51,620 bases of DNA from Candidatus Tritonobacter lacicola (GTDB lineage Bacteria; Auribacterota; Tritonobacteria; Tritonobacterales; Tritonobacteraceae). Below the pieces are notes generated by a model. That model ran no database searches, was not told where the DNA came from, and saw only the letters and a list, made by a program, of their open reading frames with translations. Positions 15,941-43,900 of the stretch are shown here, piece by piece; position 1 is the stretch's first letter, and each line of letters opens with the position of its first letter. Location: assembly GCA_030765135.1 (NCBI GenBank), contig JAVCDC010000065.1, positions 1-51,620 of the forward strand. Reading direction: 5' to 3'. Made by a program: the position numbers and the translations under genes.

Positions 15941-18229
15941 CTAATGCATCCTGATCGCAGTCATGCCGACTGTGTCATTGCCGGACGGGATTATCCAGAG
16001 GTCCCGCGCAAGCGCTGACGGGTTCCGCGCATCCGCGTCCCAGTACGTCCAGTCACCCGCCGCCGGAGCGTTGTAGCAGTAGAGGTTGTCGTCACCACCG
16101 TCACTTTTCATGACCGCGAGGCCTCCTGCTTCCGCGGCAGCAACGGCGACCGCGTCGTTACCGGATGGTATCACCCAGAGGTCTCTCGCCAGCGGTGTCT
16201 GGTTCCGCGCGAGGCAGTCCCAGTACGTCCGGTCGCCTGCGGCCAGGTTGTTATACGCGTAGAGGTTCACGTCACCCGCTCCCTCCTCCTTCAAAACAGC
16301 CAGCCCCTTCACGCCGCCTCCGATGTCGAGGCCGGCCATGCATGCTGCGTCGTTGCCGGCCGGCATGACCCAGAGGTCACGGGCAAGGGGCGAGGGGTTC
16401 CGGGAAAAGGCGTCCCAGTACAGCCAGTCGCCCGCTTCGGGGGCGTTGTAGTAGTACAGGTTCAAGTCCCCGCCGCCGTCATTCTTCAGGATGGCCAGGT
16501 CCAGCCGCCCGTCGGCGTTTATATCCTCGACGGCCGCGATACCTATCGCGTCGTTGCCGGCGGGGATGACCCACAGGTCCCGCGCAAGCGCCGACGGGTT
16601 TCGCGCAGAGCAGTCCCAGTACATCCAGTCGCCGCCCACCAGGCTGTCGTAGAGGTAGAGGTTTACGTCACCCGCTCCCTCCTCCTTCAGCACGAGGAGG
16701 CTCTCCGGGAACGTCCCCCCTATCGCCGTCATGCCGATGGCGTCGTTGCCCGCGGGGATCACCCACAGGTCCCGCGCGTACGCCGAGGGGTTCCTCGCCA
16801 GCGCGTCCCAGTACAGCCGGTCTCCACTGACCAGGCTGTTATAGTAGTAGAGGTTGATGTCGCCCTCCGCGCTGCTCTTAAGCACCGCCAGCTTAGGCCC
16901 GCCCGTGGGTGTAATCGTAGGCGTCAGCGTTATAGTCGGTGTCCGCGTGACCGTTTGTGTGGGTGTGGCGGTCGGCGTACAGGTAGACGTCGGCGTGATA
17001 GTGGGCGGTATTGTCGGCGTGTTCGTTGCCGTCACGGTGGGAGTATTCGTCGGCGGTGAGGTCGGCGTCGACGTGGGCGTACCAGTTGCCGTTGGAGTCT
17101 GTGTGCTGGTTGCAGTAAAAGTCGAAGTGGCGGTTGCTGTCGGCGTGAGTGTTATCGTCGGTGTCAGCATGACCGTGGGCGTGGAAGTCGGCACCGTTGT
17201 CTGTGACGGCGTTGCCGTCACGGTCGGCGTGTGCGTCGAGGCCATTGTATGGGTCGGAGTCGGCGACGCGGCAGTCGAGCCGGCCCATCCGGCCAGCCTC
17301 GCCCACATCCACCACACCGCCCGACCCTTCAGCACACAGTTTATCCGCGCCTTGTTGCCGGGACCGTCACAATGAGCGCATTCGGCACAGCCGTCATAAC
17401 CGGTGACGCCGTTTCCCGTAGTTAACTGTTCGAGCTCAGAACCGGCATTGGCATCGATCCACTCCTCTCCCCAGTTTCCGCCGGTATAGTCCAGGTCGTC
17501 ATACATCGCCAGATCCCAGAAGTAAAACCCATCCGGATCGTATGCTTCGATGTCCGCAAAATCGAACAGTATACGATTATTAGTGTTACAGTGCTGCCTG
17601 ATCAACTGGTTGTTGTAATGAACGTGACCATCGCCGTTCGCCTGGGGGTCGTCGTGGAGATTCTCGCCCTGGCCCTCGGCGTGGCCGGTCATGAACACGA
17701 ACTTCACGGGATGTTCCGCGGCCCGTGGCTTGGTGCCGCCCTCGCCGTACTCCGATACAAGTATCTCCATGTTGTCCACGTAGCGCTGGGCGTTGTGCAT
17801 GTTGATGCTGCACCAGGACCACATGATGACGTTAACGTGTAAGTTCGCGGGGTTATCCAGAAGATTTCTCGTTGCCGTCACCCAGGGTGTAACGCCGTTG
17901 CCGTCGATGTAGTCCCCCTGGCTCAGGTCGTCGATGCCGGGTATGCCGTTGTCATCCAGATCGAGGCCGGACGAGCCGTTATCAGACCACTCGTACTTCG
18001 TCCCGAATGAGGGGAAAGTATCGAGGGCGTTCATGCCCGTGATCAGCTGGCTCCCGTGAGATGTGTGCTGATAGGCGACGTGAAGATCGCTTTTCGCCTG
18101 GCTGATCCATGAGTCGGGGATCTGCGATAGTTCCGTGCAAGTGTGGTCGATTATTATCGGCTGGGCAAAAACGGCTGGAGTGACTAAAAACAGACCGCCG
18201 GCAATAAGAACTGTCGATTTCAACTTCAT
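15941..18229 (-). CDS. Secreted multidomain protein with five-repeat C-terminal module
   Basis: A 762-residue exported protein with a clear signal peptide (MKLKSTVLIAGGLFLVTPAV, then FAQ). Residues about 22-317 form a globular domain starting IIIDHTCTELSQIPDSWI, with the motif HVAYQHTSHGSQLITGMNAL; similar openings occur in secreted proteins of other bacteria, but I know no function for it. Late in this domain are Cys-rich CAECAHC and NKARINCVLKGRAVWWMWARLAGW. Residues about 318-446 are a Thr/Pro linker of TPT units, likely extended. Residues 447-762 are five repeats of about 60-67 residues (see next entry), shared with the two giant proteins at 37.4-48.6 kb. The ATG has only a weak ribosome binding site; the small lipoprotein at 18330-18578 lies just upstream. 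Confidence 0.85.
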   Translation of the reverse strand: MKLKSTVLIAGGLFLVTPAVFAQPIIIDHTCTELSQIPDSWISQAKSDLHVAYQHTSHGSQLITGMNALDTFPSFGTKYEWSDNGSSGLDLDDNGIPGIDDLSQGDYIDGNGVTPWVTATRNLLDNPANLHVNVIMWSWCSINMHNAQRYVDNMEILVSEYGEGGTKPRAAEHPVKFVFMTGHAEGQGENLHDDPQANGDGHVHYNNQLIRQHCNTNNRILFDFADIEAYDPDGFYFWDLAMYDDLDYTGGNWGEEWIDANAGSELEQLTTGNGVTGYDGCAECAHCDGPGNKARINCVLKGRAVWWMWARLAGWAGSTAASPTPTHTMASTHTPTVTATPSQTTVPTSTPTVMLTPTITLTPTATATSTFTATSTQTPTATGTPTSTPTSPPTNTPTVTATNTPTIPPTITPTSTCTPTATPTQTVTRTPTITLTPTITPTGGPKLAVLKSSAEGDINLYYYNSLVSGDRLYWDALARNPSAYARDLWVIPAGNDAIGMTAIGGTFPESLLVLKEEGAGDVNLYLYDSLVGGDWMYWDCSARNPSALARDLWVIPAGNDAIGIAAVEDINADGRLDLAILKNDGGGDLNLYYYNAPEAGDWLYWDAFSRNPSPLARDLWVMPAGNDAACMAGLDIGGGVKGLAVLKEEGAGDVNLYAYNNLAAGDRTYWDCLARNQTPLARDLWVIPSGNDAVAVAAAEAGGLAVMKSDGGDDNLYCYNAPAAGDWTYWDADARNPSALARDLWIIPSGNDTVGMTAIRMH
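15944..16891 (-). repeat. Five-repeat C-terminal module, copy A (316 aa)
   Basis: Five repeats of 64, 67, 65, 61 and 59 residues. Consensus: L-A-[VI]-[LM]-K-x-x-G-x-G-D-[VL]-N-L-Y-x-Y-N, then GDWxYWD, then ARNPSxLARDLWxIPxGNDAxGM. Repeat 2 ends EDINADGRLD, a DxNxDG calcium-loop-like motif as in FG-GAP/VCBS repeats. The same order of linkers recurs in copies B and C. Repeat 5 ends the protein. Probably a small beta-propeller; that is inference. Confidence 0.92.
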
Positions 18230-18329
18230 GTGGTTTCATCAGGTTTGATGTTGATTGTAAGAAGAGAGATTACTTGCCGCTCATCCCGGAGCAGCGTGGA
18301 GTTGATCGTGAGAGGGACGTATACCGGGT

Positions 18330-18578
18330 TCACTCCCCGAGGGCGTCATCCATGTCCTTCTGCCGTTGGGCGGTCGCGGCGTTCGCCCCGTCCACCCTCG
18401 ACTTCGCCCTCATTCCCGCGTCAACAGCAGTCCGGCCGGTAAAGCCCTCGACCACCTGGTCCGTGAACGGCTTCGAGGACGGCCCGGCCTTCTCCTTGTC
18501 GGCTGTCTCCTGGTCGGCGGCCCCGCCGCAGCCGGCAAGCATCACCGCAGCCATAATCGCCATTAACCTTATTTCCAT
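18330..18578 (-). CDS. Small lipoprotein
   Basis: An 82-residue protein with a signal peptide and lipobox (MAAVMLAGCGGA; Cys at about 17). The mature part is short, polar and Lys/Asp-rich (ADKEKAGPSSKPF, KSRVDGANAATAQRQKD), with no recognised domain. AGGAG sits 8 nt upstream of the ATG. It is 100 nt upstream of the secreted protein at 15941-18229, in the same direction, so the two may be co-transcribed. Function unknown. Confidence 0.7.
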   Translation of the reverse strand: MEIRLMAIMAAVMLAGCGGAADQETADKEKAGPSSKPFTDQVVEGFTGRTAVDAGMRAKSRVDGANAATAQRQKDMDDALGE

Positions 18579-18743
18579 ACCCTAGTCTCCTATCGCGAGC
18601 ATTATACCATCTTCAGTCGAAAATTTCAAGGGGGGGGCAAAGCCTTTGGACTTTCTCCGTTTTATAAGGCTCGATATGCGCAATCACCTGGCCTTGAGGC
18701 TGTAGGAGATTTGAACAAATGCAAAACGTCGTTTTACCAAATA

Positions 18744-18922
18744 CCCTCTCCCCTTTGTAAGGGGAGAGGGCTAGGGTGAGGGGTTAAAGACGGTTACCAG
18801 TTAATAGTTTCTAGTTTCTGGTCTATTATCTTCTATTATTGTCTCTCAGGAATCTGCAAGAAACCAGAAACTGCCTGGAACACCCCCTCATCCTGACCTT
18901 CTCCCCCTTAAGGGGGAGAAGG
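18744..18922. repeat. Nested inverted-repeat element
   Basis: The gap 18579-19036 holds no gene. It contains two CCCTCTCCCC-type hairpins facing each other: 18744-18770 followed by CTAGGGTGAGGGG, and CCCCTCATCCTGA leading into a 26-nt perfect palindrome at 18897-18922. Between them AGTTTCTGGT and ACCAGAAACT are also inverted. The whole stretch could fold into one long cruciform or RNA hairpin, as expected for a BIME or MITE-like element. Confidence 0.65.
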
Positions 18923-19036
18923 AAATTCTTATTGTTCGAATTCCCCTCTGATGGCAAACATGTTTTTCAATTAGAAAGACATTTTTAAAAAAAACGGCGA
19001 ATCTCCTGGACGCCACAACTTTATCCCGGTATTAAG

Positions 19037-20715: not shown

Positions 20716-20751
20716 ACCTTATCACGAAAAAAAGTGTTACCTGGTTCCTTT

Positions 20752-20920
20752 TTCTCCGTTACACGTTACACGTCACACGTTTCACGCCTTTGCATCTTGC
20801 TTCTTTTTTCTTTTTCTCCGTTACACGTCACACGTTTCACGCCTTTGCATCTCGCATCTTTTTTCTTTTTCTCCGTTACACGTTACACGTCACACGTTTC
20901 ACGCCTTTGCATCTCGCTTC
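20752..20920. repeat. Degenerate tandem array 1 (three units)
   Basis: Three units of about 55-65 nt, each made of CTCCGTTACACG, one to three further TTACACG/TCACACG steps, TTTCACGCCTTTGCATC and a CTTCTTTTTTC tract. It fills the gap between the FHA-GGDEF start and the stop of the metallo-beta-lactamase gene. Units differ by number of 7-nt TTACACG steps rather than by unique spacers, so it is not CRISPR. The same unit makes up array 2 at 22234-22640. Confidence 0.85.
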
Positions 20921-20924
20921 TTGC

Positions 20925-22208: not shown

Positions 22209-22233
22209 AGCTATATTTTCCCCGTTTAACGTT

Positions 22234-22640: not shown

Positions 22641-22641
22641 T

Positions 22642-26708: not shown

Positions 26709-26710
26709 CC

Positions 26711-27741: not shown

Positions 27742-30700
27742 ATGACCAATGGACCGGTAAAAACATCAGGTATCTGGGACAACCACCGTCGGGGGTCGAT
27801 AGGCGACTTTCTCAAAGAGAAGATCCGGTCGGGATCCGATCTCTCTTTTGTCTCCGCCTATTTCACCATCTACGCCTACGACGCCCTGAAGGAGCAGTTC
27901 GACCGGATCAATCACCTCCGCTTCTTGTTTGGAGAGCCACAGTTCATCCAATCACTCGACCCCGATAAGACGGAGAAGAAGGCTTTTAGAATAGAGAACG
28001 ACGCTCTCACTCTCGACAATAAGCTGGAACAAAAACGTGTGGCCAGGGAATGCGCCGAGTGGCTGGATACCAAAGCTGAAATCAGGTCCATCATCAAGCC
28101 GGGCTTTCTCCACGGCAAGATGTACCATATGAACAATAATGGCGTCCAGGAAGCCATTATCGGGAGTTCTAACTTCACGGTACGCGGTCTGGGCCTGGGC
28201 GCTTCCGGAAATAACATCGAGCTCAACCTTGAGGTCAACGACAACCGGGATCGAAGGGACCTGAAGAACTGGTTTGATGAGGTCTGGAACGATGGCTCCC
28301 TGGTGGAAGATGTCAAAGCCGATGTACTCAGGTATCTCGCCCAGCTCTATCAGAATAATTCCCCCGAATTCATCTACTTCAAAACACTCTTCCATATCTT
28401 CGAAGACTACCTTTCGGAAGCGGAGCGCGGCGGACTGCTTAACGAAAAGACCGGTTTCTTCGAGACTGAAGTCTGGGAGATGCTATATGACTTTCAGAAA
28501 GACGGCGTAAAAGGAGCGATCAACAAAATCCTCACCCATAACGGTTGTGTCATTGCCGACAGCGTCGGACTCGGCAAGACCTTTGAGGCGCTGGCTGTCA
28601 TCAAGTACTTTGAATTATTGAATGGAAGGGTTCTTGTGCTCTGCCCGAAGAAACTGCGCGACAACTGGATTGTCTATCGCGAGAACGATGAACGCAATCC
28701 CCTAAAAAACGATCGTTTCGCCTACACGGTCCTCTCCCATACGGATCTCAGCCGCTATAGCGGAACATCCGGCGATGTAAACCTATCAACCCATAGTTGG
28801 GGAAACTATGATCTGATCGTGATCGATGAGTCGCACAACTTTCGCAATAATGCCGGCGGAAAGCAAAACGATGATGGAACCCGCCGTCGGAGCCGGTATG
28901 AGAGGTTGATGGAGGATATCATCCAGTCCGGGGTACAGACCAAAGTGCTCTTGCTCTCCGCTACACCGGTCAATACGAACCTCAAGGACTTGAGGAATCA
29001 GATATATCTCATCACCCAGGACGAAGACCGGGCCTTCTCTGAATCGCTCAAGATATTCAGCATATCCCAGACCATGAAGAACGCCCAGACCCACTTCACT
29101 AAATGGGCGGATCCCAAGAAGAATCGTGACCGGAAAGTAGGACAGCTCCTGGAAGCTCTGGATTCCGGGTTCTTCACGCTGCTTGACGAACTCACGATCG
29201 CCCGATCTCGAAGGCATATTGAGAACTACTATGATATTGACAAGATCGGCCGATTCCCCGAGAGGCTGAAACCTATCTCCCTTGCGCCCGATATCGACAC
29301 GAAAGGATTCTTCCCGACCTATGATGAACTAAATACGGAGATCTTGAAGTACAAGCTCTCTCTTTATAATCCCTCTGAGTATGTCCTTGATGCACACATG
29401 GCCGAATATGTAAAGCTGGGCGGACAGATGCAGCTATTTAACGATCAGAAGACACGCGAACATTACCTGATCGGCATGATGCGCGTGAACTTCCTCAAGC
29501 GTCTTGAGAGTTCCATTGAATCATTCGAGATCACGATGGAGAGAACCATTAGGAAGATCGATGACCTGATCGATAAGATCAAGCACTTTGACCGGAATCG
29601 CGAAAAGTATATGAGCCCGGAATTTTATTTACTTGAAATGGCTGAAGATGAGGATCTAGAGGACCTGGAGGAGCGGCTTCGGGTTGGGAAGAAACTATCT
29701 TTTAAACTAGAACATCTCGACATCAAGCGCTGGCTGAAAGACCTCCGCTCCGATAGGAAACAATTGGTTGATCTTCACGAAGCCGCCGCGGCTGTTACAG
29801 TGGAACGAGACCAGAAATTGCAGGAACTGAAGAAACTTATTCAAGACAAGTTAAATTCACCCCTAAATCCGGACAACAGTAAGGTCCTAATCTTCACGGC
29901 TTTTTCCGATACGGCAAACTATCTGTATGAAGCTCTTAAGGAGTGGGCCCTGGATGAACTCAACCTCCATATCGCTCTCGTAACCGGCAGCGGTAAGAAC
30001 AAGACCACATACAAGGTTGCGGAATTCAGAGGGCAGACCGACTTCAACGCGATTCTCACCAACTTTTCTCCCCGTTCCAAGATGCGGGAAAAGATGAGCA
30101 GTATGCCGCAAGAGGAAGAGATCGATATCCTGATCGCATCGGACTGTATCTCTGAAGGCCAGAATCTCCAGGACTGCGACTATCTGATCAACTATGATAT
30201 CCACTGGAACCCGGTGCGCATAATTCAGCGTTTTGGCCGGATCGATCGGATCGGATCCATCAATACCAGCATCCAACTGGTAAATTTCTGGCCGACACCG
30301 GATCTTAACAAGTATATCAACTTGAAAGACCGGGTAGAGGCCCGCATGGCCCTGGTCGACCTGGCGGCCACCGGCGAGGATGACCTGCTCAATACCGAAC
30401 AGATTAAGGATCTTCTGAAAGACGAACTCACCTACCGGGAGAAGCAACTGCTCCGCCTGAAAGACGAGGTAATTGATCTGGAAGAGATGGACGAAAGTAT
30501 TTCACTCAGCGAATTTACGCTGGATGATTTCCGGATCGAATTGATGAACTACCTGGAGACCAACAAAGAACTGCTTAAGAATGCGCCTTTCGGACTTTAT
30601 GCCCTGGTCCCGCCGTTGAAAGAACTGCGGACCGCAGATCTCTTCAACTCTTCCATGCAGGAGATCGTCAAGCCGGGAGTTATTTTTTGCCTTCGTCACA

Positions 30701-31095
30701 ACTCTCCCCGGCAGGATGAGAAGCAGAAGAGCGTGAATCCGCTCAATCCCTATTACCTTCTCTATCTCCGTGATGACGGAGAAGTGCGGTTCACTTTTGT
30801 CCATGCCAAGCAGATCCTGACTATGTATCAGGCGCTCTGCCGGGGACAGACCGAACCATTCAAAACGCTCTGTGAACTCTTTGACCGCGAGACGAACAAT
30901 GGCGCGGAGATGTCTGCCTACAGCACCCTTCTCAGGAAAGCCGTGGAGTCCGTCGCCCGCACCTTCCAAAGACGCACCGCCGCCGGTCTCCAGTCCGGTC
31001 GTGATTTTGTCATTCCGGACCGGGACCAACAGGCCACCGGCCGATCGGATTTCGAGTTAATCACCTGGCTGATAATCAAGGACGGAAGAGCGTAG
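27742..31095 (+). CDS. PLD-SNF2 helicase of a defence operon
   Basis: A 1117-residue fusion. Residues about 15-190 form a phospholipase-D-like nuclease domain: FLHGKMYHM near 122 and AIIGSSNFTVRGLG near 137 (H-x-K and GSSNF motifs; the usual Asp of HKD is not evident). A SNF2/superfamily 2 motor follows: Walker A ADSVGLGKTFEAL near 271, VIDESHNF near 360, LLLSATPVNT near 385, and in the second RecA lobe LIASDCISEGQNLQDCDYLI and QRFGRIDRIGS near 829. Such PLD-helicases are found beside adenine methyltransferases in DISARM-like, Hma-like and type III-like systems. It is the first gene of a plus-strand set with a DUF4143 ATPase and a large methyltransferase, so a restriction or DNA-remodelling role is inferred. 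AAGGTG precedes the ATG by 5 nt. Confidence 0.9.
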   Translation: MTNGPVKTSGIWDNHRRGSIGDFLKEKIRSGSDLSFVSAYFTIYAYDALKEQFDRINHLRFLFGEPQFIQSLDPDKTEKKAFRIENDALTLDNKLEQKRVARECAEWLDTKAEIRSIIKPGFLHGKMYHMNNNGVQEAIIGSSNFTVRGLGLGASGNNIELNLEVNDNRDRRDLKNWFDEVWNDGSLVEDVKADVLRYLAQLYQNNSPEFIYFKTLFHIFEDYLSEAERGGLLNEKTGFFETEVWEMLYDFQKDGVKGAINKILTHNGCVIADSVGLGKTFEALAVIKYFELLNGRVLVLCPKKLRDNWIVYRENDERNPLKNDRFAYTVLSHTDLSRYSGTSGDVNLSTHSWGNYDLIVIDESHNFRNNAGGKQNDDGTRRRSRYERLMEDIIQSGVQTKVLLLSATPVNTNLKDLRNQIYLITQDEDRAFSESLKIFSISQTMKNAQTHFTKWADPKKNRDRKVGQLLEALDSGFFTLLDELTIARSRRHIENYYDIDKIGRFPERLKPISLAPDIDTKGFFPTYDELNTEILKYKLSLYNPSEYVLDAHMAEYVKLGGQMQLFNDQKTREHYLIGMMRVNFLKRLESSIESFEITMERTIRKIDDLIDKIKHFDRNREKYMSPEFYLLEMAEDEDLEDLEERLRVGKKLSFKLEHLDIKRWLKDLRSDRKQLVDLHEAAAAVTVERDQKLQELKKLIQDKLNSPLNPDNSKVLIFTAFSDTANYLYEALKEWALDELNLHIALVTGSGKNKTTYKVAEFRGQTDFNAILTNFSPRSKMREKMSSMPQEEEIDILIASDCISEGQNLQDCDYLINYDIHWNPVRIIQRFGRIDRIGSINTSIQLVNFWPTPDLNKYINLKDRVEARMALVDLAATGEDDLLNTEQIKDLLKDELTYREKQLLRLKDEVIDLEEMDESISLSEFTLDDFRIELMNYLETNKELLKNAPFGLYALVPPLKELRTADLFNSSMQEIVKPGVIFCLRHNSPRQDEKQKSVNPLNPYYLLYLRDDGEVRFTFVHAKQILTMYQALCRGQTEPFKTLCELFDRETNNGAEMSAYSTLLRKAVESVARTFQRRTAAGLQSGRDFVIPDRDQQATGRSDFELITWLIIKDGRA

Positions 31096-31151
31096 TATGG
31101 CAGATTGAGAATTGTATTGCCAATTTGCGGAGCGGATGATACCTTGTCATC

Positions 31152-32312
31152 ATGATTCCACGCGCTATATCAAGAACAGTCAGAGAACTGGCAAAAGGTT
31201 ACCCCGCTGTGGCCATTACAGGGCCCCGGCAGTCGGGAAAGACCACGCTGGCTCGGATGCTGTTTCCCAATAAACCGTATGTTTCCCTGGAAGATCCGGA
31301 TATCCGTGGACTGGCCCAGGAAGACCCCCGGGCATTTTTGGAAAAATATGATTCCGGCGCAATTCTGGACGAGGTACAGCGTTGCCCGGACATTCTCTCA
31401 TATCTGCAGGTTATTCTTGATAAGCGTTCCCGAATGGGACGCTTTATTCTTACTGGATCTCAGCAATTCGGCCTTCATTCCGGCATAACTCAATCTTTAG
31501 CCGGACGCGTTGCCATGGTTCAGCTATTGCCGTTTACTTATGACGAAGTTTACAAGAAACCACCCTCACTGGATACTATGTTGTACACCGGCCTGTATCC
31601 CCCGATTTATGATCGAAAGTTGAATCCCTCCACCTGGCAGGCCAATTATATACAGACTTATATTGAGCGGGATGTGCGACAGATGATCAACGTCCGCGAC
31701 CTGAGTACGTTTCAGCGTTTTCTACGGTTATGCGCGGGGCGAACCGGGCAGCTCTTGAATCTCTCCCGATTAGCCTCGGATGTGGGCATTACCCACAATA
31801 CGGCAAAATCCTGGATATCTATCCTGGAAGCAAGCTATCTGGTTTTTCTCCTGCGCCCCCATCATCGTAATTTCAACAAACGTATTATTAAATCGCCTAA
31901 ACTTTATTTCTATGACACAGGCTTGGCGGCCTGGTTACTGGGAATTCGGGAAGCCGGACAGCTTGAAACCCACCCTCTGCGCGGCAGCTTATTTGAATGC
32001 TGGGTAATCAGCGAATTATTCAAGGGGCAATTTAATCAAGGGAAGCCAGCCGATCTTTTTTTCTGGCGGGATCGGGAGGGAAACGAAGTCGATCTTCTGA
32101 TGGAAAGGGGGAATTCCCTTATTCCGATAGAAATCAAGTCCGGGCAAACCATCAACAGAGATTTTTTCCGGGGGCTTGACTATTGGCGGAGTTACCAGGA
32201 GAACGATGAAATACGATCGTGGCTGATATATGGAGGGAAGGAAGAACATAGCCGTCGGAATACAACAATCATCAGTTGGACCGGATTGAGGAAATTAATG
32301 AAAGAATGCTAA
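31152..32312 (+). CDS. AAA ATPase with DUF4143
   Basis: A 386-residue ATPase: Walker A GPRQSGKTT near 24-32, Walker B AILDEVQRCPD near 70-80, sensor FILTGSQQFGL near 97-107, an extended IERDVRQMI stretch and the C-terminal DUF4143 region (KLYFYDTGLAAWLLGI; LFECWVISELFK; FFWRDREGNEVDLLME; PIEIKSG), which has a PD-(D/E)xK-like nuclease appearance (EVDLL...IEIKSG). These proteins are common near toxin-antitoxin and defence genes; their activity is poorly known. It lies 56 nt after the helicase and its TAA overlaps the methyltransferase ATG (TAATG), so it is part of the same operon. No clear Shine-Dalgarno is seen. It could be an independent passenger, but the coupling argues for membership. Confidence 0.88.
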   Translation: MIPRAISRTVRELAKGYPAVAITGPRQSGKTTLARMLFPNKPYVSLEDPDIRGLAQEDPRAFLEKYDSGAILDEVQRCPDILSYLQVILDKRSRMGRFILTGSQQFGLHSGITQSLAGRVAMVQLLPFTYDEVYKKPPSLDTMLYTGLYPPIYDRKLNPSTWQANYIQTYIERDVRQMINVRDLSTFQRFLRLCAGRTGQLLNLSRLASDVGITHNTAKSWISILEASYLVFLLRPHHRNFNKRIIKSPKLYFYDTGLAAWLLGIREAGQLETHPLRGSLFECWVISELFKGQFNQGKPADLFFWRDREGNEVDLLMERGNSLIPIEIKSGQTINRDFFRGLDYWRSYQENDEIRSWLIYGGKEEHSRRNTTIISWTGLRKLMKEC

Positions 32313-35300
32313 TGAATATTCAACCGCTGAAAGCTCAAATCAAAGAGGCTCTTCAGACCTTCCGGTCCGGCAGCGCCAGAGAGAACGCGCTCAAACTTTT
32401 GAATGTTCTCGGCTACCGCAGCGATCGGACACTCGATCTTGACGGCAGCCCGGAGGCCTTCCTGCAACAGTTTGACCGCGACTCCGATCGTCCCTTTCGC
32501 AAGGATAAAGCTCTCTTCGATCGCTGGAAGTCCATTGATTTCCTCTTCCAGCTTACGGATACGGAAGTTCGCAATGCCGGGATGCAGGGTGACCTCCCTT
32601 TTGACTCTTCAACCGGATATGACGGCAAGACCTACTCTTCCTATCTCTTCTTCGTGCTGGAACTGAAAAAGGACCACTACACCCGAACCCACCTCTCCCA
32701 GATCACCCGTGAAATTAACCGGCTTTTCACGATGCCGGTAATGGTCTTCTTCAAACAGGAGGGGACACTCACTCTGGCGGTAATCAACCGCCGGATCAGC
32801 AAACGAGATCCGGATAAAGACGTCCTGAAAAAGGTCACCCTGATAAAAGATATTCGCATCGAAGACCCGCACCGCGCGCATATTGAAATCCTCTATGATC
32901 TCTCCTTTCCCGCCATCTGCGCCAAGGCTCAGCCGTCCAACTTCATCGAACTCCATGCGGCCTGGCAAAAAGCGTTGGATGCCAGTGAACTCAACAAACT
33001 CTTCTACAAGGAATTGGCGCTCTGGTACTACTGGGCGGCAACGAGGGTAAGATTTCCCGTCCCACCTTATGTAGAGGATGAAGAGGCGTATCAGAAAGAG
33101 AGCCTTATCCGTTTGGTTACCCGCCTCATCTTCATCTGGTTCATGCGGGAGAAGGAACTTGTCCCGGCCGATATTCTCCAATCAGGGAAATTGACCTCGA
33201 TTCTGAAAGATTTTGATCCTCAGAGCGAAAATGACAGCTCATTCTACAAAGCCATCCTCCAGAATCTCTTCTTCTCCACACTGGATACCACCATGAAGGA
33301 GCGAGACTTTCGCCGGCAGAGGTCCTTCCAGGGAAAAAACAAGGATTACATGGAGCATAAGGTATTTCGCCATGAGAAGCTGTTTCGGGAAGGAGTACAA
33401 CTGAAAGACCTTTTCGGAGAAATACCCTTTCTTAACGGTGGGCTTTTCGAATGTCTTGACCACTTCGATGAGGAGGAGAAAGTCATTCGAGTTGATGGAT
33501 TCTCCGATATTGCCAAGCACCAACCTGTTGTTCCGAACCACGTCTTCTTCCTGCCGGAGACCGATGCGAAAGAACTTGGTGTGGATCTGAACCAGGTCTT
33601 CGATACCAGGAACAAGCGTTATAAGGTCAGAGGGTTGATCGACCTGCTTGAAAACTACAAATTCACAGTGGTTGAAAACACTCCCATTGAAGAAGAGATT
33701 GCTCTTGATCCCGAACTCCTCGGTCTGGCCTTTGAGAACCTCCTCGCCAGTTATAATCCCGAAACCGGCACGACCGCCCGGAAACAGACCGGCTCATTCT
33801 ATACTCCCAGAGTGGTTGTCGATTTCATGGTCGATGAGTCCTTGATCGCATATCTGAAAGCTAAACTGCTGGGACCGGATACTTCAAGTTCGAAAGCGGG
33901 GGGCGGGAAAGGAAAAAGCAGCAAGATCGAAAAACGATTGCGGAATTTACTGAGTTACCGTGAGACGCTTGTAGAGTTGACGGATAAAGAGACCGACCAA
34001 CTTATCGAGGCCATCGATCACTGTAAGATCGTCGATCCGGCCTGCGGCTCCGGCGCGTTCCCGATGGGGATCCTGCACAAGCTTGTCCATATTCTCCAGA
34101 GTATCGATCCCGGCAACGAACGGTGGAAGACCAAACTGCTGGACCGAACACCCGTAGAGATCCAGGAAGATGTGACGCGGATGCTGGAGGGAACCAGTCT
34201 CGACTATGTGCGCAAGCTGGGCTTGATCCAGAACTGCATCTACGGCGTGGACATTCAGCCCATCGCCATCGAGATCGCCAAGCTCCGATTTTTCATATCA
34301 TTGCTCGTTGATTACCGGAAAGACCCCAAGAAACCAAACCTGGGTATTCAGCCGTTGCCTAACCTCGACTACAAACTGATGCAGGGCGACAGCTTGATTG
34401 AGGATTTTTATGGCATCTCTCTCTCCCCGGAGACCGTTGAAAAGGAAGAGCAGAAACTCCTCATTGACGATCGCCTTGAAGTGAAGGGGCTGATCGATAC
34501 CTTGTGGAGAAAACAGTCTGAATATCTTAACGCATGGCGCCTGAAGGATAAAGAACGCCTCAAGAAAGAGGTCGAGGGAACAATAATCAAGATTTTTCAT
34601 CATGAAATCGAGATAAAAAAGAAACCCTATTTTGAAGCGCTGAAGGTGCTGAAAGATCAATCAGACCAGGTTAAGAATCTGGAACAAAAGCAAAAGTACT
34701 ATGCCGCGGGCAAGGCGAAAATCGACAAGAAATTTGATTTCGATTTTGTTGCCGTTGAGCGGGAACTCCGGGAATATACGCGTGGATATCGGCGGCGTCC
34801 GTTCTTTCCCTGGCATCTATACTTTGCCGAGGTATTCCAGGACAACGGGGGGTTTGATATTGCCCTTGGAAATCCGCCCTATGTACGTCAGGAAAAGATT
34901 CGAACTCTCAAACCAGCCCTTCAGAAACAGTATGAGTGTTTCACGGGCACGGCCGATCTTTACACCTATTTTTATGAGCGATCCATTACTCTTCTCTGTG
35001 ATGGTGGAATACTTACTTTCATCAGTTCAAACAAATTCTTCCGTTCCGGGTACGGCCAGAAGTTGCGCGCTTATCTTGGTAAGAACGCCTCTCTTCAGCA
35101 GGTGATAGATTTCGGCGACGCCCCGGTCTTCACCGCCATCGCTTACCCAACCATTATCGTGCTCGGCAAAAATACGCCTCAGATAAATAAATTTTTCGCC
35201 ATGACCTGGAAACCGGGCCCACCGATTAATGACTTCGTGTCGATCTACGAGAAACAACGCTTTGCCATGGACCAGGAGAGCCTCACACCCGCCGGGTGGC

Positions 35301-36880
35301 GGCTGGAATCTCCGGAAGTGCTCCAACTGCTTGAAAAACTTCGTAATGCCGGAACTCCTCTGGGTGAATACGTTAATGGAAGGTTCTATCGTGGAATCTT
35401 GACCGGCTTAAACGAAGCCTTTGTCGTGGACCGTGCCACCCGCGACCGCCTGATTGCAGAAGACCCCAAATCGGAAGAAATCCTGAAGCCTTTTCTCCGG
35501 GGGCGGGATGTAAAACGCTGGAGAGTGGAACCGAAGGATCTGTGGTTAATTTTTACACGCCGCGGAATTGATATCAAAAGATATCCGGCCATCAAAAAGC
35601 ATCTGGAGAAATACCGCAAAAAATTGAAACCCAGACCTAACAATTGGCCGTCTGACAAGCAATGGTCGGGACGCAAACCGGGCTCATATAAGTGGTATGA
35701 GATACAGGATAATATTGCTTATTATAAGGAGTTTGAAGAACAGCAAATCGTTTGGGGCAATCTCGCAACTCACCCAAAATTTTCATTTGCCAATGCAGGG
35801 TATTACCTTAGTGCGCCGGCGGTTTTAATGGTTACAGATAACCCCTATGTTCTTGGCATTCTTAATTCGAAACTTACACACTATGTTGTTTCTCAATCTG
35901 CGGCCACAAGGCAAGGTGGATATGTTGAATTCAAGCCCATGTATATTTCGAATCTGAGTATCCCGGATCCTTCGCAAGATATTAAAGCTAAGATTTTTAA
36001 TTTGGTTATTAATGCCGAAAAGGCTACTGGCAATCAACTTGTTGAAATTGAAAATAGAATCGATAAAGAAGTGTATAGGTTATTTAATCTAACAGAAGAA
36101 GAAATCACCCTCATCGAATCGTCTATTGGACCCTCTAGAACGAAAGCGGAAATAAAATCGGATCTTCGTTCGATATTGCTGCCGGCTCTGAAGGAGATGT
36201 CACCATATTTCAACCTGGAGACAGTATCTGTCCGGTTAAAGGGAGTTGGAATAGAGGCTCCATCTACAACTGTAACAACCTATCTCTCTGAATTCATATC
36301 AGAGGGCTTATTATATGACGCCGGGAGGGGATGGTATTCCCGCATCGCGAAACCATTCGCTCTCGATACTGCTCCTGTAAAAAAGATCATCACCAAAATA
36401 AAAAAAGCCTTCCCTCTCCTTGATTTCTCCTGCTGGTCAACAGAACAGATCAATCCGTATATGCATCATCTTTTAGGCAAGTCCGTAACATTCGTTTATA
36501 CGGACCGTGATCTTATGCCGGCTGTTTATGAGGAACTTCAGGGTTGGCAAGGATATAAAGTCTATCTGGATCCCTCATCGGATGAAGCGAAGAAAAATTT
36601 TCGGGTTGAGGAGAAGACGATCGTCATCCGTCCGGAGAGCAAAGACTCCCCGGGAGGGGAAGGCCATACGGCATCCATTGAGAAATTGCTCACGGATTTG
36701 TCTATTGAGGTCGAGAAACTGCCGCTTATGAGCCTCGGTGAATTCCAGGATATGGCCTGGCGCGCCGTAACCTCTGCCCGAATCTCCATGGGAACTTTAC
36801 TCCGCTATGCTCGTAGGAGGTACCGGGAACCATCAAATATGTTTGGCGAAAACTGGTGCAGGCAGAGGGTCAAACCCTAA
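32312..36880 (+). CDS. Type IIG/PglX-like adenine methyltransferase fused to an AbiEi-like domain
   Basis: A 1522-residue protein. The N-terminal about 500 residues include an R-type region (YLFFVLELKKDHYTRTHL, a possible nuclease strand). Then SFYTPRVVVDFM, methyltransferase motif I DPACGSGAFPMGIL near 575 and motif IV LGNPPYV near 852 mark an N6-adenine methyltransferase of the Eco57I/PglX class, followed by a target-recognition-like region to about 1265. The last about 240 residues are different: a winged-helix-like start (APSTTVTTYLSEFISEGLL, GRGWYSR), CWSTEQINPYMHHLLG, and SIEKLLTDLSIEVEKLPLM with LRYARRR. That is the pattern of DUF6577/AbiEi-type antitoxin proteins as I know them. The TAATG junction makes the ATG at 32312 more likely than the TTG at 32276. 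It probably marks, and may cut, DNA for the helicase system. Confidence 0.88.
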   Translation: MNIQPLKAQIKEALQTFRSGSARENALKLLNVLGYRSDRTLDLDGSPEAFLQQFDRDSDRPFRKDKALFDRWKSIDFLFQLTDTEVRNAGMQGDLPFDSSTGYDGKTYSSYLFFVLELKKDHYTRTHLSQITREINRLFTMPVMVFFKQEGTLTLAVINRRISKRDPDKDVLKKVTLIKDIRIEDPHRAHIEILYDLSFPAICAKAQPSNFIELHAAWQKALDASELNKLFYKELALWYYWAATRVRFPVPPYVEDEEAYQKESLIRLVTRLIFIWFMREKELVPADILQSGKLTSILKDFDPQSENDSSFYKAILQNLFFSTLDTTMKERDFRRQRSFQGKNKDYMEHKVFRHEKLFREGVQLKDLFGEIPFLNGGLFECLDHFDEEEKVIRVDGFSDIAKHQPVVPNHVFFLPETDAKELGVDLNQVFDTRNKRYKVRGLIDLLENYKFTVVENTPIEEEIALDPELLGLAFENLLASYNPETGTTARKQTGSFYTPRVVVDFMVDESLIAYLKAKLLGPDTSSSKAGGGKGKSSKIEKRLRNLLSYRETLVELTDKETDQLIEAIDHCKIVDPACGSGAFPMGILHKLVHILQSIDPGNERWKTKLLDRTPVEIQEDVTRMLEGTSLDYVRKLGLIQNCIYGVDIQPIAIEIAKLRFFISLLVDYRKDPKKPNLGIQPLPNLDYKLMQGDSLIEDFYGISLSPETVEKEEQKLLIDDRLEVKGLIDTLWRKQSEYLNAWRLKDKERLKKEVEGTIIKIFHHEIEIKKKPYFEALKVLKDQSDQVKNLEQKQKYYAAGKAKIDKKFDFDFVAVERELREYTRGYRRRPFFPWHLYFAEVFQDNGGFDIALGNPPYVRQEKIRTLKPALQKQYECFTGTADLYTYFYERSITLLCDGGILTFISSNKFFRSGYGQKLRAYLGKNASLQQVIDFGDAPVFTAIAYPTIIVLGKNTPQINKFFAMTWKPGPPINDFVSIYEKQRFAMDQESLTPAGWRLESPEVLQLLEKLRNAGTPLGEYVNGRFYRGILTGLNEAFVVDRATRDRLIAEDPKSEEILKPFLRGRDVKRWRVEPKDLWLIFTRRGIDIKRYPAIKKHLEKYRKKLKPRPNNWPSDKQWSGRKPGSYKWYEIQDNIAYYKEFEEQQIVWGNLATHPKFSFANAGYYLSAPAVLMVTDNPYVLGILNSKLTHYVVSQSAATRQGGYVEFKPMYISNLSIPDPSQDIKAKIFNLVINAEKATGNQLVEIENRIDKEVYRLFNLTEEEITLIESSIGPSRTKAEIKSDLRSILLPALKEMSPYFNLETVSVRLKGVGIEAPSTTVTTYLSEFISEGLLYDAGRGWYSRIAKPFALDTAPVKKIITKIKKAFPLLDFSCWSTEQINPYMHHLLGKSVTFVYTDRDLMPAVYEELQGWQGYKVYLDPSSDEAKKNFRVEEKTIVIRPESKDSPGGEGHTASIEKLLTDLSIEVEKLPLMSLGEFQDMAWRAVTSARISMGTLLRYARRRYREPSNMFGENWCRQRVKP

Positions 36881-36944
36881 ATAATAAGTTGAAGGGGACA
36901 CCCCGCAGTTGCTGTTCGAAATCTTAGAGGGAGACTCTCAGCAA

Positions 36945-37262: not shown

Positions 37263-37348
37263 GTACTCTTTCCTACCAGATCGACAATCCGTGTATGAGG
37301 CTTTTTTACATTGTACCATAATCAAGAGCGCCCTGGCGCACCAATACT

Positions 37349-37379
37349 AATGCCCTAACCCATTACGGGTTAGGGCATT
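37349..37379. other. 13-bp perfect hairpin
   Basis: AATGCCCTAACCC (37349-37361) pairs perfectly with GGGTTAGGGCATT (37367-37379) around ATTAC. It lies between the start of the small gene at 37262 and the stop of the propeller protein at 37428. No T-run follows on either strand, so it could be a terminator without a U-tract or a repeat element. Confidence 0.5.
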
Positions 37380-37427
37380 GAAGATGGTCGGGGCGACTGG
37401 ATTAAGACATTAAATCGGAACTGCGCC

Positions 37428-40400
37428 TTATTCCGTACTGATCGCCGTCATACCAACCGCGTCATTCCCTATAGGAATGACCCACAAGTCGCGAGCAAGG
37501 GCAGACGGGTTCCTGGCATAGCAATCCCAGTATATCCAGTCGCCGGGAACAAGGGCGTTGTAGTAGTACAGGTTCACGTCCCCCGCACCCTCCTTCTTAA
37601 GGATCGCCAGGTCCTCCTTGCCGTCGTTGTCGGCGTCTATGGCGGTCAGCCCTATCGCGTCGTTGCCCGCCGGCATCAGCCACATGTCCCGCGCGAGAGC
37701 AGAGGGATTCCGTGCAAAACAGTCCCAGTATATCCAGTCGCCCTCCACCAGGTTGTTGTACACGTAAAGATTCACATCCCCAGCGCCCTCCTTCTTCAGG
37801 ATGGCAAGGCCCCTCCCTGCGCCAACGCCTATGTCCGTCAGGCCGATGGCATCGTTTCCGGCAGGCATCAGCCACATGTCCCTGGCCATGGCGGACGGGT
37901 TCCGACTGAAGCAGTCCCAGTAAAGCCAGTCGCCGGGAACAAGGGCATTGTAGTAGTACAGGTTCACGTCCCCCGCTCCCTCCTTCTTCAGGATAGCAAG
38001 ATCATCCAGCCCGTCGGCGTTCATGTCATCCACTCTAGCGATGCCTATCGCGTCGTTGCCCGTCGGCATTATCCACAGGTCGCGCGCCACGGAGGACGGG
38101 TTCCGCGCATCGCAATCCCAGTAGCTCCAGTCTCCACCTACGATGCTGTTGTATAGGTAGAGGTTCACGTCGCCGGCTCCTTCCTTCTTCATAACGTAGA
38201 GCCTGTCCGGGCTGCCACCCGTTGCTGTCATACCTATCGCGTCGTTACCTGTCGGTATGATCCACATGTCCCTGGCCATGGCGGACGGGTTCCGGCTTAA
38301 GCAGTCCCAGTACAACCAGTCGCCCGGCACCAGGCCGTTGTAATAGTAGAGGTTCACGTCGCCAGCGCCTTCCTTCTTCATGATCGCCAGCTTGTTCTCC
38401 AGATGGGTCGGCCGCCCTGAAAAGACATACAGCATGTTGTTATCTGAACCAACATAGATCCTACCGTCTGAGCCTATTGCTGGGGAAGATTCAACATCTC
38501 CTCCAGTCCCGTATGTCCAGGCGAGCGCGCCGTCGGAGCCGAGTGCGTACACGTTGTTGTCATAAGACCCAATATAAAGCCGCCCGTCGGAGCCGATGGC
38601 GGGGGAGGAGGACACCCGGTCCCCGGTCCCGTAGCTCCAGGCGATCGCGCCATCGGAGCCGAGTGCGTACACGTTGTTGTCACATGATCCCACGCAGAGC
38701 CTCCCGCCGGAGCCCACGGCGGGGGAGGAGGTCACCAAGTACCCGGTCCCGTAGCTCCACGTGAGCGCGCCATCGGAGCCGAGTGCGTACACGTTGTTAT
38801 CCCAGGACCCCACGTAGATTTTCTCCTCGGAGCCCACGGCGGGGGAGGAGGTTACCCAGTCCCCGGTCCCGTAGCTCCAGGCGATCGCGCCGTCGGAGTT
38901 GAGTGCGTACACGTTGTTATCCCAGGAGCCCACGTAGACCCTCCCGCTGGCGCCTATGGCGGGGGAGGAGGTTACCCAGCCCCCGGTCCCGTAGTTCCAC
39001 GCGCGCGTGCCGTCGGAGTTGAGTGCGTACACGTTGTCGTTCCAGGCCCCCGCATAGACCCTCCCGTCCGGTCCTATCGCGGGGGAGGATTGCACGCGGT
39101 ATCCAATGCTGCACGTCCACGCGAGCGTGCCATCGGAGTTGAGGGCGCACACATTGCCGTCATTATCCCCCACATAAATTCGCCCATCAGGCCCCACCGC
39201 AGCGGAAGAGTCCACCAAGGCGCCGGTCCCGTAATCCCACGCGAGCGTGCCATCGGAGTTGAGGGCGCATATAGCGCGGGGGGAGTAAACGTCGTTATCC
39301 GGCACGTAGATCATGCCCCCGTGGCCTATTGCTGGGGAAGAGGACACAGCGTCCCCGGTGATGTAGCTCCACGCAAGTGCCGCCGTCGAGGGTCCGGGGT
39401 ACGAGCTCAACCCCGTGCGCATCGGGTCGTGGCGGAACATTGGCCAGGGAGGCGGCGTTGGCGTGATGGTGGGCGTCCGTGTAATCGTAGGCGTCAAGGT
39501 GATTGTGGGGGTCCGGGTAACCGTAGGTGTGCTTGTAGGCGTGGCCGTCAGGAGCCCTGTTGGCGTCCGGGTCGGCGTTGACGTCCGCGTGGGTGTTGCC
39601 GTAGGCGTCCCTGTGGGGGTCCCCGTCGCCGTAGGCGGCGACTCCTGGAACGCGAAGAGCCTGTCGTACGACCCAACGAAGACTCCCCCCTCACCGCCTA
39701 TGGCGGGAGACGACCACACCCGCTCCCCTACCAGGTAGCTCCACTGGAGGCTGCCCGACGAATCGAGGGCGTATATATTCCCGTCGCCACTGTAGGAGCC
39801 CGCGTACACCCTCCCCGCGGCGTCCAGAGCTGGGGACGAGGGAACGCTGCCGGCGGTCAAGTAGCTCCACGCAAAAGAGCCCGCCGAGGTGAGCGCGTAG
39901 ATATTGTTATCGCCGGAGCCCACGTACACATTGCCGTTGGTGCCCACAGCCGGGGAGGAGTCCACCCAATCACCGGCGGCGTAGGTCCACACAAGAACCC
40001 CCGCCTGCGTGAGGGCGTAGAGGTTGTTGTCCTGTGACCCGACATAGAGACGTCCGCCGGGGCCCAGGGCGGGCGAGGAGCGCACGTTCCCCCCCGTCGC
40101 GTAGCTCCACAGGAGCGAGCCGGATGACGTGAGGGAATAGACGTTGCCGTCCGGGTCACCGATAAAGACGCCTCCTCCGGGCCCAAGGGCGGGGGCAGAG
40201 TACTTATCATACCAGAAGGTAACATAGCTCCACGAGAGGGCGCCGACCGAGGTGAGGGCGTAGAGAGCGCCGCCTGAGGAGCCCGCGTAGACCTCGCCCC
40301 CGTAGCCCACGGTGAGGGCGGTCCGCGAGATGCCCCCTCCCGTCGCGTAGCTCCAGGAGAGGGTCCCGTCCGATTCCAACGAGTAGATATTTTTGTCCCA

Positions 40401-40808
40401 GGAGCCGGCGAGGACCCTCCCATCAGGGCCGACAACCGGCGAAGCGTACACGCCCGCCCCCGTCGCGTAGCTCCAGAAAAGCGAGCCGTACGAGTTCAGG
40501 GCGTACACGTTGTTGTCGCCCGACGAGGCCCCCGCGTAGACCCGTCCCTCGTTATCCACCACGGGCGAGGACTCGACCCCTGCACCCGTTACGTAGCTCC
40601 ACAGGAAGACGCCCAGGGTGGGCCCCTCGTACAGGCTCCTTCCAGTGTGCGATAGGTCGTTTCTGAACATCGGCCATGGGGCATAGGGAGTGGGTGTAGC
40701 TGTGGGTTGGGCCCGGGCAGCCGCGGCAAAGAGCACTACGAGAACCACCGCTGTAGCGACAATGCTTGTACGTCCCATGAGAAATCCACGTCGCCTTCCC
40801 TCGCGCAT
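37428..40808 (-). CDS. Secreted double eight-bladed propeller protein with five-repeat module
   Basis: A 1126-residue exported protein. An Arg-rich start (MREGRRRGFLMGRTS) and a long hydrophobic core ending AARAQ form the signal peptide; GGAGG lies 9 nt before the ATG at 40808. After PTATPTPYA, residues about 40-386 are an eight-bladed PQQ/BamB-like propeller introduced by WPMFRNDLSHTGRS, with blades of 40 residues of the type SSPAVGxxGxVYVGSxDNNxYAL. Residues about 390-453 are a Thr/Pro linker, residues about 455-803 a second eight-bladed propeller introduced by WPMFRHDPMRTGLS, and residues 807-1126 the five-repeat module. Such propellers usually bind ligands or proteins; I see no enzyme domain. 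The N- and C-terminal blocks match those of the giant protein upstream, so the two probably arose by duplication. Confidence 0.88.
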   Translation of the reverse strand: MREGRRRGFLMGRTSIVATAVVLVVLFAAAARAQPTATPTPYAPWPMFRNDLSHTGRSLYEGPTLGVFLWSYVTGAGVESSPVVDNEGRVYAGASSGDNNVYALNSYGSLFWSYATGAGVYASPVVGPDGRVLAGSWDKNIYSLESDGTLSWSYATGGGISRTALTVGYGGEVYAGSSGGALYALTSVGALSWSYVTFWYDKYSAPALGPGGGVFIGDPDGNVYSLTSSGSLLWSYATGGNVRSSPALGPGGRLYVGSQDNNLYALTQAGVLVWTYAAGDWVDSSPAVGTNGNVYVGSGDNNIYALTSAGSFAWSYLTAGSVPSSPALDAAGRVYAGSYSGDGNIYALDSSGSLQWSYLVGERVWSSPAIGGEGGVFVGSYDRLFAFQESPPTATGTPTGTPTATPTRTSTPTRTPTGLLTATPTSTPTVTRTPTITLTPTITRTPTITPTPPPWPMFRHDPMRTGLSSYPGPSTAALAWSYITGDAVSSSPAIGHGGMIYVPDNDVYSPRAICALNSDGTLAWDYGTGALVDSSAAVGPDGRIYVGDNDGNVCALNSDGTLAWTCSIGYRVQSSPAIGPDGRVYAGAWNDNVYALNSDGTRAWNYGTGGWVTSSPAIGASGRVYVGSWDNNVYALNSDGAIAWSYGTGDWVTSSPAVGSEEKIYVGSWDNNVYALGSDGALTWSYGTGYLVTSSPAVGSGGRLCVGSCDNNVYALGSDGAIAWSYGTGDRVSSSPAIGSDGRLYIGSYDNNVYALGSDGALAWTYGTGGDVESSPAIGSDGRIYVGSDNNMLYVFSGRPTHLENKLAIMKKEGAGDVNLYYYNGLVPGDWLYWDCLSRNPSAMARDMWIIPTGNDAIGMTATGGSPDRLYVMKKEGAGDVNLYLYNSIVGGDWSYWDCDARNPSSVARDLWIMPTGNDAIGIARVDDMNADGLDDLAILKKEGAGDVNLYYYNALVPGDWLYWDCFSRNPSAMARDMWLMPAGNDAIGLTDIGVGAGRGLAILKKEGAGDVNLYVYNNLVEGDWIYWDCFARNPSALARDMWLMPAGNDAIGLTAIDADNDGKEDLAILKKEGAGDVNLYYYNALVPGDWIYWDCYARNPSALARDLWVIPIGNDAVGMTAISTE
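37431..38390 (-). repeat. Five-repeat C-terminal module, copy B (320 aa)
   Basis: Five repeats of 63, 67, 64, 66 and 60 residues, starting LAIMKKEGAGDVNLYYYN. Repeat 1 ends GGSPDR, repeat 2 DDMNADGLDD, repeat 3 DIGVGAGRG, repeat 4 DADNDGKED, and repeat 5 the C-terminus. These inter-repeat signatures are in the same order as in copies A and C. Confidence 0.93.
38400..40690 (-). repeat. Two PQQ-like propeller arrays of about 120 bp blades
   Basis: Sixteen blades of about 40 codons. Between roughly 38500 and 39260 the blade units are very similar even at the DNA level (GTCCCGTAGCTCCAGGCGA and GAGTGCGTACACGTTGTTGT recur each about 120 nt), and the same words occur in the third propeller of the next gene at 42040-42640. 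Confidence 0.9.
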
Positions 40809-40998
40809 AAATCGCACCCTCCACCCGCGGTCCGCTTTTACCATGAAATCTCGATTCCCCGGGCCGTCACGTCACGTAGCAGTCACCCCGGCGCAAAGCA
40901 CCACGGCCCGACAGAAAACATGGCCCCGCGCTCTTGGCCGCACCCGTTTAGGGGATTTCGCCCCGCTGCCGCTAGGTATCTGCCCTTACAGGGCCCCC

Positions 40999-43900
40999 TT
41001 ATCTTTTCCACCATACCCTGATTGCGGTTATCCCCACCGCGTCGTTCCCCGTGGGGATTATCCAGAGGTCCTGTGCAAGCGTCGACGGGTTGCGCGCCAG
41101 AGCATCCCAGTAGCCCCAGTCGCCGGTCAACAGCGCGTTGTAGTAGTACAGGTTCACGTCCCCTGCGCCTTCCTTCTTCAAGACCGAGAGGTCATCCACC
41201 CCGTCCCCGTCCATATCGATGGCCGTGATACCTATGGCATCGTTCCCTGACGGTATTATCCATAGATCTTTTGCCAGAGGGGACGGGTTCCTCGATACGG
41301 CGTCCCAGTACGACCAGTCTCCTTCTACAAGGTTCCTGTAGACGTATAGGTTCACGTCCCCCTCCCCTTCTTTCTTCAGGATCGCGAGGCCCCTCTCTCC
41401 GTCTCCCTTCCCTATGTCCGTCAGGCCCACCGCGTCGTTCCCCGTTGGGATCAACCACAGGTCGCGAGCCAGGGGTGTCGGGTTCCTCGATACGGCGTCC
41501 CAGTAGCCCCAGTCGCCGGTCAACAGCGCGTTGTAGTAGTACAGGTTCACGTCCCCTCTCCCCTCCTTCTTCAGGATGGCGAGGTCCTTCAGCCCGTCGG
41601 CGTTCATGTCCTCCACGCTGGCGATGCCTATCGCGTCGTTACCCGCCGGCATTATCCAGAGGTCGCGAGCCACGGCGGACGGGTTCCTCGCCAGGGCGTC
41701 CCAGTACGACCAGTCGCTGTCCTCAAGGCCTTCGTAGAGGTACAGGTTCACGTCGCCCGCCCCCTCCTTCTTCATCACGTAGAGCCTGTCCGGGCTGCCA
41801 CCCGGCACAGACGCCATCCCCACGGCGTCGTTCCCCGTCGGGATAATCCACAGGTCACGCGCCATAGGCGAGGGGTTTCTCGCCAGCGCGTTCCAGTAGG
41901 TCCGGTCACCCGCGACGAGGTCGTTGTAGAAGTAGAGGTTGACGTCGCCTCTCCCATCCTTTTTCAGGATGGCGAGCTTCCACGCTACCCCGTCGAGACA
42001 GTACAGCATGTGGTCCTCGGAACCGACGTAGATCCTCCCGTCAGAGCCTATGGCGGGAGAAGAGGACACGCTGCCTCCGGTCCCGTAGCTCCACGCGAGC
42101 GCGCCGTCGGAGTCGAGTGCGTACACGTTGTTGTCCCAAGACCCCACGTAGACCCTCCCCCCGGCGCCCACGGCGGGGGAGGAGTCGTACACAATGTCTC
42201 CCGTGCCGTACGTCCAGGAGAGCGCGCCGTCGGAGTTGAGTGCGTACACGTTGTTGTCCCCGGACCCGATGTAGAGCCTCCCGCCGGTGCCCACGGCGGG
42301 GGAAGAGGAGACCCAGGTTCCGGTCTCGTACGTCCAGGCGAGCGCGCCGTCGGCGGCGATGGCGCACACGTTGTTGTCCCACGACCCCACATAGATCCTC
42401 CCGTCGGAACCTATGGCGGGGGAAGAGGTCACACAGGAGCCGGTCCCGTAGCTCCAGGCGAGCGCGCCGTCGGAGTTGAGTGCGTACACGTTGTTGTCCC
42501 AGGAACCGACGTAGACCCTCTTATCAGACCCGATAGCGGGGGAGGAGGAGACAGAGACTCCGGTCATGTACGTCCACGCGAGCGTGCCGTCGGAGTCCAG
42601 AGCGTACACACCGGAGTCCCATGACCCTACATAGAGCCTCCCGTCGGAGCCCACGGCGGGGGAAGAGTCCACCCAGAATCCGGTAACGTAGCTCCACGCG
42701 AGCGTGCCGGCGGAGTCTATGGCGTACACGTTGTCGTCCCAGGACCCCATGTAGACCATCCCGTCGGCGCCTATGGCGGCGGAAGACCATACGAACGATC
42801 CAGAACCGCTTATGTAACTCCACGCCAGCGCGCCGTCGGAGTTCACGGCGCACATCGTGCTGGGGGAATAGGCGTCATTATCCGGCACGTAGACTCTCCC
42901 CCCGGTCCCTATTGCGGGAGAGGAGGAGACGCCGCCGCCCGTGACGTAGCTCCACGCCATCGCCACCGTCGAGGGGCCCCGGTACTCGCTCCGCCCCATA
43001 CGCATCTGGTTATTATGGAACATCGGCCAGGGGGCGTACGGTGTGGCCGTCTGTAAAGGCGTCGGAGTCTCTGTCTGCGTGACCGTGGCAGTCGCCGAAG
43101 GTGTTGGCGTCTGAGGCATCGTCGGTATTTCCGTGGGTGTGCGTGTCGGCGGCGGAGTCGTCACCGTTGGCGTGTGAGTGGGCGTATTGGTCGGCGTCTC
43201 CGTGGGCGTATCGGTTACAGTCGGCGTCGGAGTGGGCCCTGTCGGAGTGTGAGTGGGCGTGGCGGTGATAGAGGGCGTACTGGTAATTACCGGCGTGGAG
43301 ACCCCAATCGCGTACAGCATGTCGTCATTCGACCCCACGTAGAGCCTTCCGTCGGAGCCTATGGCGGGAGAGGAGGACACACTGCCTCCGGTCATATAGG
43401 TCCATAAGAGAGAGCCCGTGGAGTTGAGGGCGTAACCACCGTTGTCTTGAGAGCCCACGTACACATGCCCGCTGGAGTCTATGGCGGGGGAAGACTGAGT
43501 TACATAATTCCCTGTTACATAGCTCCATGAAAGTGAACCCGTGGAGTTGAGCGTGTAAATAGTACTGTCCCAGGACCCGACATGGACTCTCCCTACAGTA
43601 CCTATGGCGGGGGATGAATATATATTGCCTCCGGTCATATAGGTCCACGTGAGGGAGCCGTTGGAGTTGAAAGCGTAAACACCATGGTCTTGAGAGCCCA
43701 CGTATATTTGCCCCTCAGAGCTTATGGCGGGGGAAGAGGATACATAGCCCCCTGTCATGTAGGTCCACGAGAGTGAGCCCGTGGAGTTGAGGGCGTACAC
43801 GTTGTAGTCAAGCGACCCGACATAGACTTTGCCCCCGGGGCCCAGGGCTGGAGAGGAATCTATGCTGTCTCCGGTCGTGTAGAACCACCTGATAGTGCCG

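Follow-up and report, generated by a model that had tools for sequence, protein, structure and literature searches.

Among the described proteins closest to the protein module considered here are two groups of beta-propellers. In the VCBS/FG-GAP propellers (PF13517, FG-GAP_3; PF01839, FG-GAP; integrin-alpha type), blade number often varies even between close relatives (PMC9218822), loop CD carries a conserved G and W, and the DxDxDG motif is not universal within the supercluster (PMC8023676). In the five-bladed lectin tachylectin-2, a short helix that forms part of the sugar pocket is anchored by the W of loop CD (PMC8023676).

Three proteins with a five-repeat C-terminal module

The initial annotation of the window (51,620 nucleotides of contig JAVCDC010000065.1 from Candidatus Tritonobacter lacicola) described three secreted proteins, otherwise different, that end in a common block of five repeats. 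The block is real, and five repeats are found in each protein. Copy A is encoded by a 762-aa gene on the minus strand whose limits, 15941..18229, stand as first given; a signal peptide is followed by an unmatched domain of ~300 aa, a Thr-Pro-rich linker and the module, which occupies aa 445-762 (15944..16897, minus). For copy B, the start first placed at 40808 is a later one, and the full open reading frame extends to 40844 (37428..40844, minus, 1138 aa), encoding a signal peptide, two PQQ-type propellers and the module at aa 817-1138 (37431..38396, minus). The gene of copy C is also longer than first thought, reaching 48648 rather than 48591 (40999..48648, minus, 2549 aa), and its product consists of a signal peptide, an unmatched domain of ~870 aa, PQQ propellers, a lamin-tail domain and the module at aa 2223-2549 (41002..41982, minus). 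In all three the module forms the C-terminal end. It measures 318-327 residues, at 59-67 residues per repeat, and pairwise identity between the three modules is 66-77%.

The hydrolase originally proposed for copy C has no library support, as the first 870 residues of this protein (45949-48561, minus) are identified by no library; their N-terminus resembles that of another locus, L032. The ~300-aa N-terminal domain of copy A (17270-18160, minus) is likewise unmatched in Pfam, NCBIfam and PDB sequences. For neither of these N-terminal regions did searches bring up a catalytic identity. Elsewhere in the window, on the plus strand at 27742-36877, genes for a helicase with a PLD-like domain, a DUF4143 AAA protein and an Eco57I/TaqI-like methylase stand in a row, an arrangement reminiscent of a restriction-modification or defence island.

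Kinship with VCBS/FG-GAP propellers and predicted fold

The modules of the window have no match above cut-off in Pfam, NCBIfam or PDB sequences, and their FG-GAP_3 scores fall below the cut-off. Across the genome, FG-GAP_3 (PF13517) matches 10 of 24 complete modules, with a best E-value of 2.3e-9, and one of them (L051) exceeds the gathering cut-off. Weak matches in other genomes of the phylum pointed to matrixin (PF00413) proteases of ~520 aa, whose C-terminal ~290 residues contain, by inspection, five DxDxDG-type loops. Aligned with hhalign, the module profile and this matrixin domain reach a probability of 99.4% (E 9.8e-22); a PQQ propeller and a plain FG-GAP protein from the same genome gave E-values of 0.14 or more, although as single sequences they are weaker controls. 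Searching with the matrixin-domain profile alone brings back the modules of this genome and, in seven genomes, a single matrixin each. The proposed kinship with FG-GAP/VCBS propellers is thereby borne out. The view that the module belongs to no named family survives in that no curated model spans it, and gives way in that FG-GAP_3 and the matrixin domain connect it to described proteins.

With VCBS/FG-GAP propellers the module shares a repeat of ~60-65 residues, the order of strands and its occurrence in secreted multi-domain proteins. Some of its blades may also have loop AB in a DxDxDG-type form, which in window copies B and C is seen behind repeats 2 and 4. It differs from them in its constant five repeats, in the loss of DxDxDG from most blades and in a long invariant CD loop, GDWxYWDxxARNPSxxARDLWxIPxGND; Pfam cut-offs miss most copies. 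The matrixin domain resembles it in having five DxDxDG-type loops, in C-terminal placement and in the profile alignment, yet occurs once per genome (in seven genomes) with a single partner, and its CD loops are short and not invariant. Similarity at the level of the repeat also extends to XAC2610-related proteins (NF047539; 6 of 24 copies, best E 4.6e-8), a domain of 89 positions as against a five-repeat module, for which the module scores shown lie below the curated cut-off of 35 bits. Module arrays were absent from the 43 other genomes of the phylum that were searched, and no relatives turned up in phages, in plasmids or in 84,980 species contigs, which were covered by two pattern-based scans and may not include the genome itself. 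In IMG/VR, one phage was the sole carrier outside this genome. The module is best read as a five-bladed, lineage-restricted and previously unnamed family of the VCBS/FG-GAP superfamily.

The fold was approached through two AF2 predictions from different queries, built on 3 and 4 sequences (pTM 0.57 and 0.62, pLDDT 51-52). Both models contain five pairs of B and C strands and a helix in some CD loops, the loop in which confidence is lowest. Foldseek matched both to beta-propellers, chiefly fucose lectins of the AAL/AOL/RSL type; the rings matched are 6- and 7-bladed, at TM 0.35-0.5. Models of such low confidence support a propeller, and speak for neither a blade count nor a ligand. In the blade nomenclature of PMC8023676 the module opens with strand B and finishes with strand A, an order that permits the final strand to complete blade 1 (velcro closure). 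In favour of a closed five-blade ring, the constancy of the repeat number over 25 modules weighs more than the models, given that blade number in VCBS propellers commonly differs from one close relative to another (PMC9218822). Of the five-bladed propeller originally suggested, the propeller fold is probable; a closed ring agrees with the order of the strands and the fixed count, and lies beyond what models at pLDDT 51-52 can prove.

Copies, partners and spread in the genome

The genome searched is a 3.21 Mb draft in 148 contigs, 94% complete. A first search gave 51 matches, and a repeat HMM built on the 15 repeats of the window was then iterated over fetched regions of the same genome. This yielded 24 complete modules and about 8 fragments, nearly all of the latter at contig ends; seven contigs (C12, C21, C23, C33, C69, C93 and C127) terminate within modules. 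Since the modules break the assembly in this way, their true number is probably 29 or more. All 24 complete modules have exactly five repeats, as does the phage copy (L078). In two of them, L033 and L038, the fifth repeat is shortened at its end. The module of L033 (contig C57) stops at 'WIIPF', without the final strand needed for ring closure, possibly through decay or as a variant.

Wherever the 5' end of the gene is intact (21 genes), a signal-peptide-like start is seen (hydrophobicity scan and inspection), as expected from the earlier description of these proteins as secreted. The partners are varied: PQQ-type and SBBP propellers, three papain-like C1 proteases, a C10 protease, an S41 peptidase, a GH38 mannosidase, an endonuclease/exonuclease/phosphatase domain, DUF11 and a lactonase-like propeller. 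One protein, L038, consists of a signal peptide and the module and nothing else. Between 20 and 21 of the 24 complete copies are C-terminal; 20 leave 0-6 residues behind the module, and in L042 it is followed by 12 residues ending in a Thr-Pro stretch. Three are placed otherwise, with L035 continuing into a linker and a PQQ propeller, L041 lying near the N-terminus ahead of an S41 peptidase, and L050 preceding a PKD domain. The phage copy is likewise not C-terminal. Hence the rule that all such proteins end in the module, true of the three in the window, does not extend to the genome, and placement is not always C-terminal.

This distribution bears on the idea that the module is a sorting or secretion signal which, as type IX C-terminal domains do, would deliver proteins to a machine for export or attachment at the outer membrane. 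Its frequent position at or within a few residues of the C-terminus of unrelated secreted partners is what such a signal would look like. The internal and N-terminal copies and the stand-alone L038 do not fit, 320 aa is long for a signal, and the module is also encoded by a phage, within a block of virion genes. The Por secretion tail (Por_Secre_tail, TIGR04183) has no match in the genome in a search that was positive in two control genomes. A search for SprA carries no information, as its control had no match anywhere. A type IX signal in the strict sense was rejected, because the genome has no Por secretion tail and the copies are not strictly C-terminal; a sorting terminus more generally, one of the uses first suggested for the module, is disfavoured on the same grounds and we consider it quite unlikely.

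How the module spread can be read from its repeats. In copies A-C the linkers follow an order, with GG.P after repeat 1, D(I/M)NADG after repeat 2 and DIG after repeat 3, and D.D.DG after repeat 4 in copies B and C only. These ordered signatures hold for the three window copies and dissolve genome-wide: the relaxed pattern D.[DN].[DEN] follows repeats 1-4 in 3, 6, 10 and 5 of the 24 modules, or 24 of 96 inter-repeat linkers. A positional signal is nevertheless present. For 82 of the 120 repeats the nearest relative in another protein occupies the same position, against a mean of 24 and a maximum of 55 in 2000 cyclic shifts, and 54 of 95 do so when a close clade is cut to one member. The signal exists within each of two subfamilies and drops to chance level (10/45) between them. 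In the window's own subfamily, blades within one protein resemble each other as much (0.639) as same-position blades across proteins do (0.626). Each subfamily therefore spread as a module, with blades homogenised or re-amplified before or between the expansions.

The DNA agrees with this. Among six close copies, identity of 80-88% begins a few bases from the start of the module or in the preceding Thr-Pro linker and ends no more than about 35 bases from the stop codon; the sequences upstream are unrelated, or similar only as generic repeats. From these boundaries it follows that the module moves as a cassette, and its spread as a whole unit, proposed from the window, is upheld by the boundaries together with the positional signal. 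The same two observations reject, within subfamilies, an independent amplification of blades in every gene; between the two subfamilies it may have taken place. Between modules, dN is 0.05-0.13 and dS 0.30-0.79; with dN well below dS, the modules are under purifying selection.

A putative ligand-binding module

As we read it, each repeat would provide a strand B ('LAILKKEG'), a strand C ('DVNLYYYN') and a long CD loop with a short helix ('PGDWTYWDALARNPSPLARDLWIIPSGND'), as well as the strand A ('AIGMTAI') of the following blade. The most conserved positions of the repeat sit in this loop: over 139 repeats, G23 is conserved in 90%, D24 in 97%, W25 in 76%, R33 and N34 in 97%, D41 in 97% and W43 in 99%. 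Five near-identical CD-loop sites (GDW.YWD..ARNPS..ARDLW) would form five equivalent putative pockets, with a glycan as their most likely ligand by analogy with tachylectin-2. Lectins of the tachylectin-2 type share with the module the five blades, the G and W of loop CD with a short helix, secretion, and occurrence alone or with catalytic domains (PMC8023676). They differ in having no DxDxDG at all, and searches of Pfam, NCBIfam and PDB sequences gave the module no match to tachylectin, nor to a lectin of solved structure.

The conserved CD-loop residues could also be structural rather than binding, and the module would then be a cap or spacer, a propeller without a ligand whose role is to fold its partners or keep them stable. 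Ca2+ can have a stabilising role in FG-GAP domains that bind it, and the variety of partners looks dispensable. The polar and aromatic residues of the CD loop are, however, conserved beyond much of the strands, and neither the stand-alone copy nor the phage copy comes with a common client. A cap or spacer seems very unlikely to us.

Protein-protein docking is a more serious alternative, though still an unlikely one. Here the modules would bind a shared scaffold protein or one another and so build an extracellular complex. Propellers often serve as recognition scaffolds (PMC8023676), and the same type of module is found on proteases, a glycosidase and PQQ propellers. Against this, no partner protein was found, and five equal sites with lectin-like fold matches better suit a small ligand that is bound repeatedly.

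The phage copy lies on a 24.7-kb IMG/VR contig (loci L078 and L130) with genes for a portal, a major head protein and a head-tail adaptor. A 1281-aa protein, encoded directly after the adaptor gene, holds the five-repeat module. The same contig also encodes PQQ-propeller proteins with Thr-Pro linkers and two glycosyltransferase-like genes. Taken together, a stand-alone secreted protein, secreted hydrolases and a probable use in the virion suggest that binding of a surface or glycan fits better than a sorting signal. Among the uses first proposed for the module, ligand binding would be the favoured one.

We give roughly even chances to the reading in which the module is an exported five-bladed VCBS/FG-GAP propeller whose CD-loop pockets bind a glycan and tether secreted proteins to a common ligand. 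Proteases, glycosidases and PQQ-propeller proteins would be held on this one ligand, which may be part of the surface or matrix of the cell itself. The module would have descended from the five-loop FG-GAP domain behind the matrixin protease, which is conserved in part of the phylum, and may have expanded in this lineage by duplication of the cassette, joined to new partners through Thr-Pro linkers. In an extended form of this glycan-binding reading, which appears rather unlikely, the secretome would share a lineage-specific lectin propeller with five sites as its tether to the organism's own surface glycan, and a phage infecting this host or a related one would have captured the propeller for a virion that binds that glycan.

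The analysis defines an unnamed family in which the number of blades is fixed at five and the loop motif is invariant; a single genome has amplified it, as a plug-on cassette, to about thirty copies. These findings suggest a course by which a single protease-linked FG-GAP domain may have become a terminus shared across the genome. The module would be a natural five-fold scaffold with near-identical sites, and the stand-alone protein allows its ligand to be tested directly.
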